Positions 15,555-57,854 of a stretch of 64,000 nt of DNA are shown in pieces. This DNA comes from Duncaniella muris. Its GTDB lineage: Bacteria; Bacteroidota; Bacteroidia; Bacteroidales; Muribaculaceae. The stretch covers positions 1 through 64,000 of the forward strand of contig NZ_PUEC01000011.1 in the NCBI RefSeq assembly GCF_003024805.1, written 5' to 3'. The first letter of the stretch is position 1. Every line of letters starts with the position of its first letter. Under the pieces are notes generated by a model. The model had not been told where the DNA came from. It saw only the letters and a list, made by a program, of their open reading frames with translations, and made no database searches. Made by a program: the position numbers and the translations under genes.

Positions 15555-16034
15555 TTAAAGCTCGTCGATATGGCGGTTGAGAGCTACCATTTTGATTGCT
15601 GTCTCGGCTGCTTCGGCACCCTTGTTGCCGAGCGAGCCGCCTGCGCGGTCAAGAGCCTGCTGCTCTTCGTTGACGGTGAGCACTCCGAAAATCACCGGGA
15701 TGTCACAGTCGGCGTTGAGTGCGGTCATGCCCTGGGTTACGCTTTGACATACGTAGTCGAAGTGGGGAGTGTCGCCCTTTATCACGCATCCAATGATTAT
15801 GATGGCGTCATATGATCCGGTTTCGATGAGCTTAGAGGCTGCGAATGTCAGTTCTACGGCTCCGGGTACGCTGACCACTGTCACGTCTTTTTCGGGCATT
15901 CCGTAGCTGCGCAGAGTGTCAAGAGCGCCGTCGCGGAGGGCTCCGGTGATGTGGCCGTTCCATTCGGCTACTGCTATCGCTATTCTGAAGTCTTTGATTC
16001 GGGGGAGTGAGCTGGTAGGGGTGTGCTGTGACAT
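15555..16034 (-). CDS. ribH: 6,7-dimethyl-8-ribityllumazine synthase
   Basis: The 159-residue enzyme condenses 5-amino-6-ribitylaminouracil with 3,4-dihydroxy-2-butanone 4-phosphate in riboflavin synthesis. Motifs: IAVAEWNGHITGALRDGAL (substrate-binding W-N), VSVPGAVELTFAASKLI, GCVIKGDTPHFDYVCQSVTQGM (catalytic His region, usual GDTxHFxxV) and VIFGVLTVNEEQQALDRAGG. Length is normal. No FMN riboswitch is visible upstream; it is preceded by the TPR gene 48 nt away and followed by DUF2851. Other riboflavin genes are not in the window. Confidence 0.96.
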   Translation of the reverse strand: MSQHTPTSSLPRIKDFRIAIAVAEWNGHITGALRDGALDTLRSYGMPEKDVTVVSVPGAVELTFAASKLIETGSYDAIIIIGCVIKGDTPHFDYVCQSVTQGMTALNADCDIPVIFGVLTVNEEQQALDRAGGSLGNKGAEAAETAIKMVALNRHIDEL

Positions 16035-16082
16035 TGTGAAGTTCCTTGTTTTGATTGGTTTTAATTTCAGTCTCCGGGCTTT

Positions 16083-29554: not shown

Positions 29555-30763
29555 TTAGATGTCTTCTTCGATTGAGAAGTCGTCGGGCAGATCTTCGTCG
29601 TCAAAGAGGCCGTCGGCTATTGAGTTGATGTCATCGGCGCTGGGCTCGTCTTCATCATCCGAGGCTTTTGAGGCTGCTTTCTTTTCGGCAGGCTTCGGGC
29701 TCTTTTTGCCGGAAGTGGCTCCGCCCTTTTCTTTGAGGGCTTCCATGATGAGGTTTTCAAGTTCATCGGCGAGTTCGGGATTGTCGCGGATCACTCGCTT
29801 GGCTGCATCGCGTCCCTGGGCTATCTTGGTGTCATTGTAAGAGAACCAGGAGCCGCTTTTCTTGATGATGCCGAGCTCTACGCCGAGGTCGATGATCTCG
29901 CCGCTGCGCGAGATGCCTTCGCCGAACATGATGTCGAATTCAGCGCGCTTGAAAGGAGGCGCAACCTTGTTTTTTACAACCTTGACCTTGGTGAGTTTGC
30001 CGAGCACATCGTCACCGTCTTTGATAGCTGTGCTCGGACGGATGTCGATTCGGACAGAGGCGTAAAATTTGAGGGCGTTGCCGCCGGTGGTTGTCTCTGA
30101 CGGACCGAACATCACGCCGATCTTCTCGCGCAGCTGGTTGATGAAGATGCAGGTGGTGTTGGTGCGGGAGATTGTGCCGGTCAGCTTTCTCATGGCCTGT
30201 GACATGAGGCGGGCCTGTACGCCCACGTTCTTGTCGCCCATGTCGCCGTCGATTTCGCTTTTGGGGGTCAGCGCGGCCACAGAGTCGATCACGAGGATGT
30301 CAATTGCCGAAGAGCGGATCAGCTGCTCGGCTATTTCGAGGGCCTGCTCGCCGTTGTCGGGCTGAGCCATGAAGAGGTTGTTGACGTCCACTCCGAGTTT
30401 TTCGGCGTAGAAACGGTCAAAGGCGTGTTCGGCATCGATTATCGCGGCTATGCCTCCTGCTTTCTGTGCTTCAGCTATGGCGTGGATGGCAAGGGTTGTC
30501 TTACCGGATGATTCCGGGCCGAAGATCTCGATGATTCGTCCGCGGGGGTAGCCTCCTACGCCGAGAGCGTAGTTCAAGCCGATGGAGCCGGAGGGAATCA
30601 CTTCCACGTCTTCAATATTTTCATCGCCGAGTTTCATAATGGCCCCGCGACCGTAGTTTTTCTCTATATTTCCAAGTGCCTGGTTGAGGGCGTTGAGCTT
30701 TGCTTTCATCGGGTCAAGCTCTTTGTCCTTCGAGGCCTTGATGGTGGTCTTTTTCTTTTCCAT
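29555..30763 (-). CDS. recA: Recombinase RecA
   Basis: The 402-residue protein binds single-stranded DNA and ATP and drives strand exchange and the SOS co-protease reaction. Walker A is [42 protein letters not shown] is Walker B and the L1 start; [19 protein letters not shown] follows L2. The core ends near residue 345; a C-terminal tail of about 55 residues is Lys/Ala-rich, then strongly acidic ([26 protein letters not shown]), longer than in E. coli. No LexA-type operator is evident. Confidence 0.97.
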
Positions 30764-30949: not shown

Positions 30950-31077
30950 TTTGCAGTGAACCATTCTGCGGGCGTGGTGTTTAATAAGTACATAGCAAAA
31001 TTACTTTTTCCATTGCAAGAAATGTGATAATGATTGGTTTATAAAAGAATTAAAGCTGTCGGGAGACAGCTTTTTTC
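30950..31077 (+). ncRNA. RNA-like unit, copy 1 of a tandem repeat, ending in a terminator hairpin
   Basis: This unit and the next are the same sequence shifted by 182 bases. A core at 30979-31042 (starts GTTTAATAAGTACATAGC, ends ATGATTGGTTTAT) is nearly identical to 31161-31225. The unit ends in a hairpin AAAGCTGTC / GACAGCTTT (31052-31073) with loop GGGA and a T-tract, as in a Rho-independent terminator. AACCA near 30959-30963 can pair with TGGTT near 31035-31039, closing a long stem. There is no coding frame. I see no clean promoter, so strand and start are inferred from the terminator. Function is unknown. Confidence 0.55.
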
Positions 31078-31131
31078 ATGTCATTACGCCACCTGAGAGT
31101 AAAAAATATTGCCGTCCGAATAAAATTCGCC

Positions 31132-31262
31132 TTTGCGGTGAACTATTTTCCGGACGATATGTTTAATAAGTACATAGCAAAAATTACTTTTTCCATTGCA
31201 AGAAATGTGATAATGATTGGTTTATTAAACGAATAAAGGCTGTCGGGATGACAGCCTTCTTC
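31132..31262 (+). ncRNA. RNA-like unit, copy 2 of the tandem repeat, ending in a terminator hairpin
   Basis: Second copy, offset by 182 bases from copy 1. The terminal hairpin is AAAGGCTGTC (31235-31244) with GACAGCCTT (31250-31258). Relative to copy 1, an A-T pair has become a G-C pair on both arms (AGCTGTC/GACAGCT versus GGCTGTC/GACAGCC), a compensatory change that supports a conserved RNA or DNA hairpin. In the upstream pairing AACTA replaces AACCA, still pairing with TGGTT by a G-U wobble. The sequence between the copies (31078-31131) is unrelated to them. Confidence 0.55.
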
Positions 31263-31298
31263 GTTTATATACGTTTTGTGATTTCCTTCCGTGTCTGT

Positions 31299-32522
31299 TC
31301 AGCTTTGCCGTAAACCCTCGGCAAGCATGGCTATATCGCGGCTTGAGGGAGCCTGATAGACGCGCAGACCGAAGCGGTGGACTGCTGCCAGCACATGGTC
31401 CGTGACAGAGGCTGTAAACAGCTCGTAGGGCTTCCACGATGTAAGCGAGGTGAAGAAGTAAAGCTCCAGCGGAATGCCCTGGGGAGTGGGGGCAAGCTCG
31501 CGCACCATGTAGATCATGTTGTCGTTGGTCTTCAGTTCAGGCAGGCGTGAGATGTAGTGCTCAAGGTAGCGTCGGAACAGAGTCAGGTTGACATGCTGCG
31601 CTTCCGGGTCGAGATCGCCCCACCAGTCTTCTTCTTTCAGGCTGTCGATGGTCCGGCGGTCGCAGAAGCTTACGCTGTCAACATCAATTGTGACAGAGCG
31701 GTTTATGCGGCGTCCGCGCGAGTCAGACATGCCGCGCCAGTTCTGGAACGATTCGCTCACCAGAGAGTAGGGAGGCACGGTGACTATGGTCATGTCGAAA
31801 TTCTGTACTTTCACGGTGGTGAGGCCTACTTCAAGCACAGTGCCGTTGATATTGCGCGCGGGCACCGTGATCCAGTCGCCGGGGCGGAGCATGTCGTTGA
31901 GCGTGAGCTGCACACCGGCCACCACTCCCATTATCGAGTCCTTGAACACCAGCATGAGCACCGTGGCTGCGGCACCGAGGCCGGTTATAACCGTAAGCGG
32001 ATTCTTGTCGGCAAGGATGGAAATAATGATGATCACACCCACCGAGACGGAGATTACCTGGAGCATCTGCCTGATGCCTTTGAGCGAAGAGGCGCGCCCT
32101 GACGAGGAGCTTTCTATCAGCTCGTAGAGAGCCAGAAGGAAGCGGTTGACCAGATGGACTATGACGCAGACAATCAGTATGCGGAACGTGAGCGACGTAA
32201 TGGTCAGCAATGTCGGATAAAGTGCGAGTGACGGCGGCAGGAAGGTCTGGAGCAGGAGCACACAGGCCAGTTCGGCTACCACGCGCAGCAGACGCGGGTT
32301 GAAGAGCACATCGTCCCACTTGGCTTCCGTGTGGCTGATCAGCCGGTCGATAGCCGGAATCACGTAGCGGGTGAGCGCATAGAACAGCAGCCAGGCGCAT
32401 ATGAGTATCGTCCCGGCTGTCAGTAAAGTGGCACAGGCGCGGAGCAGGCTGTCGCCCACTCCCCACCCGTGCAGTGTTTCGGAGGTCCATTTAAGGAACC
32501 CGGCTGTCAGCTCAGGCTCCAT
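31299..32522 (-). CDS. MscS-family mechanosensitive channel (YbdG/MscM-like)
   Basis: The 407-residue inner-membrane protein has about five hydrophobic segments in the first 190 residues, the last being the pore-like helix [31 protein letters not shown]. The beta domain follows: [50 protein letters not shown], which fits the YbdG-type branch better than small MscS. The soluble C-terminus forms the vestibule. The channel opens on membrane tension and protects against osmotic downshock. It overlaps the cysS 3' end by 16 nt. Confidence 0.9.
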
Positions 32523-47360: not shown

Positions 47361-47412
47361 AGCGGAGAGTCTCTGATTGGTTATTTGCAGAAAGTCTGGA
47401 AGATGTCTACTG

Positions 47413-55882: not shown

Positions 55883-56314
55883 TTATTTCGGTAGGTAAGG
55901 GGTGATGAAGTCTATAAACTGGCTTTTCTCCATGAACCCGACAGCCGATTTGACCGTGCCGTCAGGCATCAGTACGGTCAGCTGAGGGATGGAGCTGACC
56001 TCAAACATGCGGGCGAGTTCGGACGATTTGTCGACATCGACTGACATGAATATGGCTTTGCCATGATATTCCTTGGCTACTTCTTCAAAAATGGGTGCGA
56101 AGCGCTGGCATGGACCACACCAGACAGCGTTGAAGTCGATGATGGTAGGGAGGGTTTCGTGGGGAGTGATGGCGGTAAGCGGAGCATCCTTGGCAGGTGC
56201 TGCAGTGGTGGTCGCTTCGGACTGAGAAGCTGAAGACTTTTCTCTGTTCCCGCAGGCTGCAAGGCAGAGGCAAAGGCAGAGAGAGACGGAGAGAGTGAGG
56301 TGCCTGAATGTCAT
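55883..56314 (-). CDS. Thioredoxin-fold lipoprotein
   Basis: The 143-residue protein starts with a lipoprotein signal, MTFRHLTLSVSLCLCLCLAAC, with lipidated Cys at 21. The mature part is a thioredoxin domain: PTIIDFNAVWCGPCQRFAPIFEEVAKEYHGKAIFMSVDVD, active site WCGPC, and cis-Pro SIPQLTVLMPDGT. It is predicted to be attached to a membrane and to reduce disulfides in the periplasm. I chose the ATG at 56314; the frame is open to 56380. Confidence 0.9.
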   Translation of the reverse strand: MTFRHLTLSVSLCLCLCLAACGNREKSSASQSEATTTAAPAKDAPLTAITPHETLPTIIDFNAVWCGPCQRFAPIFEEVAKEYHGKAIFMSVDVDKSSELARMFEVSSIPQLTVLMPDGTVKSAVGFMEKSQFIDFITPYLPK

Positions 56315-56371
56315 AGTCAATAGAGTTTGATTGGTTGCCCTGGTGGCATTTGTTTTGAATTGTTTATAAAA

Positions 56372-57775: not shown

Positions 57776-57854
57776 CAATGTCGCTGTTTGTCCTATTGGG
57801 CATACCTACACATGAAAAATAAACCAATCAAGTAAATTTAACCTTATCGAAAGT

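Follow-up and report, generated by a model that had tools for sequence, protein, structure and literature searches.

The stretch of DNA analysed here (the window) comprises 64,000 nt of the Duncaniella muris genome and contains, next to recA and divergent from it, two tandem units that are followed by an MscS-like gene named by eye from its sequence (Table 1). Each unit is composed of a TGAAC(C/T) box, an TGTTTAAT box located 16-17 nt further on, a conserved AU-rich stretch of ca. 60 nt and a Rho-independent terminator. When drawn from position 30950 the units take in the promoter, and the RNA itself should begin near 30987 and 31169. The two copies had originally been noticed as a tandem pair ca. 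182 nt apart, and the start-to-start spacing is indeed 182-183 nt, with 30950-31009 matching 31132-31191 at 80% and 30997-31055 matching 31180-31238 at 93%. The nearly identical 64/65-nt core then reported (30979-31042 and 31161-31225) holds, one inserted A being the sole difference, as does the terminator-like hairpin said to close each unit (31052-31073 and 31236-31258); over a 700-nt region, terminator-like sites number 6 vs 0.7 expected. A compensatory stem change from A-T to G-C was also recovered (AAGCTGTC..GACAGCTT to AGGCTGTC..GACAGCCT), but a C-G to U-G change claimed along with it was not: the loop region of copy 2 has instead gained one U (GGGA to GGGAU). The region had further been described as devoid of a coding frame, in agreement with a mechanical 52-aa ORF (31078-31236) that overlaps copy 2 only. 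A micro-ORF in the core (ATGATTGGTTTA..) was considered and rejected, its frame ending differently between copies, and a conserved coding frame is ruled out because no position of the core varies, not even the wobble ones.

Table 1. Coordinates of the two units, their flanking genes and the predicted pairing sites of the window.
Feature	Position	Strand	Remarks
ribH leader, predicted pairing site ACCAATCA	16052..16059	-	ribH, lumazine synthase, 15558-16034
recA	29555..30763	-	Divergent from the units
Copy 1, promoter	30957..30985	+	-35-like TGAACC 30957-30962; -10-like TGTTTAAT 30978-30985
Copy 1, predicted sRNA	30987..31077	+	~91 nt; start inferred from promoter, end from terminator
Copy 1, invariant core ATGTGATAATGATTGGTT	31022..31039	+	Most conserved stretch across 65 copies
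Copy 1, proposed seed TGATTGGT	31031-31038	+	Within invariant core
Copy 1, Rho-independent terminator	31052..31077	+	GGGA loop
Copy 2, promoter	31139..31167	+	-35-like TGAACT 31139-31144; -10-like TGTTTAAT 31160-31167
Copy 2, predicted sRNA	31169..31264	+	~96 nt; sequence-based
Copy 2, invariant core	31205..31222	+	From alignment
Copy 2, proposed seed TGATTGGT	31214-31221	+	Extends to TGATTGGTTTATT (31214-31226)
Copy 2, Rho-independent terminator	31236..31260	+	
MscS-like gene	31299-32522	-	
Leader of exported transglutaminase-like protein gene, predicted pairing site ACCAATCA	47374..47381	-	Gene start 47360
Leader of thioredoxin-fold, lipoprotein-like gene, predicted pairing site ACCAATCA	56328..56335	-	Gene 55886-56314
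Leader of SusC-type TonB receptor gene, predicted pairing site ACCAATCA in AATAAACCAATCA	57823..57830	+	Gene starts 57855

A BLAST-type search of 101 genomes gave matches in 55, of which 50 belong to Muribaculaceae, while the five matches found outside this family were short or marginal; one of the 50, in G054, was discounted because it is FopS-like. Overall, the element is present in 49 of 61 Muribaculaceae genomes representing 18 genera, and since it recurs in ca. half of the 101 related genomes the pair next to recA is far beyond chance. Named records with the core correspond to Muribaculaceae or to unplaced Bacteroidales bins (Duncaniella, Paramuribaculum, Muribaculum, Candidatus Amulumruptor and others), two cultured examples being Paramuribaculum intestinale DSM 100749 and Muribaculum caecicola NM86_A22, and a covariance model run over 393 genomes of the order, with nine candidates scored per genome, detected no member outside Muribaculaceae, to which the predicted family is thus confined as far as searched. 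No Rfam family matched the units of the window at its threshold, whether gathering or permissive settings were used, the best sub-threshold scores being those of STnc50 (24.6 bits vs 55) and FopS (18.8 and 16.3 bits vs a gathering score of 56). The unit had no match in phage and plasmid collections, and no described sRNA family was found in the literature for Muribaculaceae. The proposal of an unrecognised small RNA family is therefore supported by those of the checks named with it that concern sequence: Rfam as above, conservation in related genomes, where the element is kept, and covariation, which is strong in the terminator. In silico, the units are two tandem predicted genes of a previously undescribed multicopy small RNA family; promoter, multicopy dispersion and complementary sites in mRNA leaders are additions to the original prediction.

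Overall, 87 sequences were gathered, of which 65 diverse copies were aligned, and the promoter motif was scored on 80. Its family form, TGAAC(C/T)-N15-GYGTT, occurs at each gene, and the spacing between boxes and core is mostly constant. The motif [TC][GA]AAC-N15-17-[CT]GTT was found in 72 of the 80 copies vs 1.04 +/- 0.94 in shuffles, and the hallmarks of ECF promoters (AAC in the -35 element, CGT in the -10 element and ECF-like spacing) are likewise seen in 72/80, with TGT instead of CGT in the -10 element of both window copies. The promoter is conserved and non-housekeeping, and is called ECF-like on this motif resemblance. Searching the genus with the motif for other regulon members returned no clear protein regulon, many matches being the sRNAs themselves plus some FopS genes. 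Downstream of the promoter, ATGTGATAATGATTGGTT is invariant in the 65 aligned copies while the 5' part is variable. The terminator changes completely in sequence among 65 distinct hairpins but keeps its pairing (588 of 650 stem cells paired vs 360 +/- 14.5 with partners shuffled) and an invariant GNGA loop. The centroid fold has the terminator as its main stable element with a core that is otherwise largely unstructured, and ensemble calculations leave the seed only about half unpaired. Each putative gene thus has its own promoter and Rho-independent terminator and no ORF, as befits an sRNA. Read on the minus strand, positions 30995-31004, opposite the sRNA 5' part, give GTAATTTTGC, a sigma-ABfr -7-like box directed towards recA, which could be an antisense promoter or a coincidence. 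One copy (L055:2065-2166) has a short internal insertion, GCAAGAAAAAGAAATG, just 5' of the invariant core.

The position beside recA, as originally noted, is itself a conserved linkage: tblastn located recA next to an sRNA copy, divergently, in 27 other genomes and across genera, so that the location is regarded as syntenic. The D. muris genome has three copies, two on the recA side and one on contig C29. Across the family, the remaining copies are dispersed next to unrelated genes, although one location recurs, close to a phosphoglucomutase/phosphomannomutase-like and a proA-like gene (names given by eye). In G034, several copies lie exactly at contig ends (C16, C48, C54 and C79), so that draft assemblies probably give too low a number of copies. 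Dispersal, together with such contig ends, might evoke a mobile or repetitive, MITE-like element whose transcription is incidental; this is very improbable, as the units have no bounding inverted repeats, their flanks and terminator sequences vary, unlike the promoter boxes, the core and the base pairing, which are preserved, and the recA synteny is conserved. We give even less credit to cis-acting leaders or attenuators of downstream genes. At some loci a promoter and a terminator do precede other genes, but each unit ends in a terminator of its own and the downstream neighbours are mostly on the opposite strand, with no consistent gene or orientation, which argues against a leader acting in cis.

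A trans-acting function is suggested by the leaders of other genes. The scan covered 1.6 Mb of the D. muris genome, taken as stretches with 1214 gene starts, and considered the 60 nt preceding start codons, with expected k-mer counts derived from a third-order Markov model; starts were called crudely, as the longest ORF from the first ATG, which adds noise. It was exploratory and its P values are raw, the replication and non-carrier sets being the main safeguards. The octamer ACCAATCA, the exact complement of the segment UGAUUGGU of the invariant core, occurs 25 times in these leaders vs 4.2 expected and ranks among the most over-represented octamers after k-mers of the sigma-ABfr -7 box. Related k-mers behave similarly (ACCAATC, 36 vs 9.8 expected; AACCAATCA, 14 vs 1.7). 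CCAATCA windows were sense in 43 cases and antisense in none. Their positions peak ca. 10-40 nt ahead of the start codon, with the maximum at -30 to -10, and ACCAATCA itself peaks at 20-30 nt; CCAATCA and ACCAATC are the commonest arrangements of their base composition (49 and 47 vs 24 for the next). Outside the sRNAs, 24 of 56 ACCAATCA sites fall in sense leaders, which make up a few per cent of the sequence. TAnnTTTG preceded the site in 15 cases and stood between site and start in one. The predicted seed is thus conserved and complementary to mRNA leaders beyond chance. Enrichment of GTAATTTTGC, also a complement of the sRNA 5' part, was discounted as the sigma-ABfr -7 box. Start-codon mimicry by CTTTTTCCAT, by analogy with FopS, was rejected as well, since no exact ATGGAAAAAG occurs at -20..+29 of the 1214 starts and the segment is not invariant.

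The enrichment was found again in other carriers of the family (604 gene starts; 9 ACCAATCA vs 1.45 expected), and in five sampled genomes without it (three Muribaculaceae and two of other families; 568 starts) the octamer was absent (0 vs 0.78 expected). For presence of ACCAATC/CCAATCA, carriers and non-carriers differ with a Fisher P of 1.4e-5, a contrast that is supportive rather than decisive because non-carriers are few and mostly AT-richer; G042, the sole GC-matched one among them, gave 0/102. In a duplex-energy scan the core stood only modestly apart from shuffled cores (-27.1 vs -25.6 +/- 0.5 kcal/mol). The same scan gave no signal with FopS as positive control, and energy-based target ranking by itself was set aside as weak and blind to that control.

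Four genes of the window have the octamer in their leader (see Table 1). In the susC leader, the site stands downstream of an TATATTTG box and the complementarity with TGATTGGTTTATT of copy 2 extends over 13 nt. Overall, the products of genes with the site include receptors of the SusC/TonB type, outer-membrane barrels, further exported proteins and an ECF sigma factor. Judged by a crude hydrophobicity rule, exported proteins account for 41% of site genes vs 21% (P 0.003), and for 60% vs 26% in the second data set (P 0.006). Housekeeping genes are also found (rpsF, valS, ribH and fabD), and these candidates fit a pure envelope regulon poorly. The ECF sigma gene (L276:2469-3056, minus strand) is a predicted target by its leader site, which D. 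muris shares with six close relatives; carriers further away, beyond this clade of seven close genomes, have a partial site or none, and the exact motif occurs in none of the ECF sigma leaders of six non-carrier genomes. Pairing with this mRNA would possibly provide negative feedback. The same leader (L276, orthologs L391-L419) also displays a block, GCCTAT(A/C)GA...(C/A)TACTC, kept family-wide including in genomes without the sRNA, which is a separate unexplained leader or promoter element.

Among known systems, FopS of Bacteroides (RF04319), which pairs near the start codon of SusC and represses its translation (PMC11697453), is similar in being a set of multicopy paralogous Bacteroidales sRNAs with a terminator hairpin after a single-stranded 5' region. 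GibS of B. thetaiotaomicron (PMC7366714), compared with the new family on its published description, is also intergenic, has a non-housekeeping promoter (PM2) and pairs with translation-initiation regions. That the units represent a divergent subfamily of FopS/GibS sRNAs would account for this shared multicopy architecture, with its single-stranded 5' part and GUGA-type terminator, for the weak sub-threshold cmscan matches and for the TGAACC-N-GTGTTATA promoter found before some FopS genes in these genomes. We nevertheless regard such a descent as improbable. The FopS matches reach 16-19 bits vs a threshold of 56 and lie mainly in the terminator; the conserved FopS 5' seed region R1, GUGUUUUUCAUGGUAUUAGAUUUAAGG, is absent from the core alignment of the new family, whose invariant core differs; and true FopS genes are present at other loci of the same genome (five FopS matches in G000). 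Moreover, FopS genes in these genomes usually have a sigma-ABfr-like promoter, unlike the new family. The subset preceded by TGAACC-N-GTGTTATA (L120 and L141) has the promoter in common with the new family, so that the two may share a regulator. No RRM_1 (RbpB-type) protein was detected in G000, rated 100% complete, hence no RbpB-type partner is evident in this genome. A further, functional analogy is offered by RybB and MicA, the sigmaE-dependent enterobacterial sRNAs (PMC1804206), which combine an alternative-sigma promoter with a short RNA regulating many outer-membrane mRNAs; they belong to another phylum and no sequence homology is claimed. The best explanation by analogy is that the new sRNA would work like RybB/MicA or FopS while belonging to neither.

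These data make it likely that the units are paralogous genes of a trans-acting sRNA, under an ECF-type promoter, that represses translation by pairing with mRNA leaders. Several sRNA loci would be switched on, in response to a signal, by an alternative sigma factor that is probably of ECF type; the sRNA of ca. 90-100 nt would then pair via UGAUUGGU(UUA) with the leaders of dozens of mRNAs and cover their ribosome-binding region, so that translation would be repressed. Repression is proposed because the sites lie near the expected ribosome footprint and by reference to FopS (PMC11697453) and to sigmaE-dependent sRNAs (PMC1804206). As the core is complementary to a start-proximal tag in dozens of genes, their translation is probably controlled as a group. 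A less favoured interpretation, unlikely but with some claim to attention, accepts the sRNA and takes the leader ACCAATCA as an independent element (translation enhancer, protein-binding site or DNA operator), the complementarity being coincidental or the sRNA acting otherwise, for instance by protein binding. The occurrence of the site before housekeeping genes and the lack of signal for FopS in the energy scan speak in its favour, but it does not account for an octamer exactly complementary to the RNA where this is most invariant, essentially restricted to the sense strand in leaders and enriched only where the sRNA family occurs.

Starting from translational repression by the paralogous sRNAs, a wider regulon might be envisaged, though we hold it as a tentative extension that is rather less than probable: throughout Muribaculaceae, ECF-driven sRNAs would silence dozens of ACCAATCA-tagged mRNAs, including that of an ECF sigma factor, the tags and the sRNA would have co-evolved, and at least one phage would have its own copy of the seed with a terminator. 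On a viral contig with genes for phage terminase, helicase and exonuclease (IMGVR_UViG_3300035520_000548; L268:5774-5865), 26 nt of the sRNA core, AAATGTGATAATGATTGGTTTATTAT, precede a strong hairpin and a U-run of their own; this stretch is possibly a phage-borne sRNA copy or mimic. In Muribaculaceae, which are common bacteria of the mammalian gut, a conserved multicopy sRNA together with a readable leader tag would give a testable global regulon with SusC-type glycan receptors among its members. In this phylum mRNAs are generally without Shine-Dalgarno sequences (PMC7366714), and such an sRNA would also be relevant to the way in which base-pairing sRNAs operate there, here in a genome with no detected RbpB-type protein.
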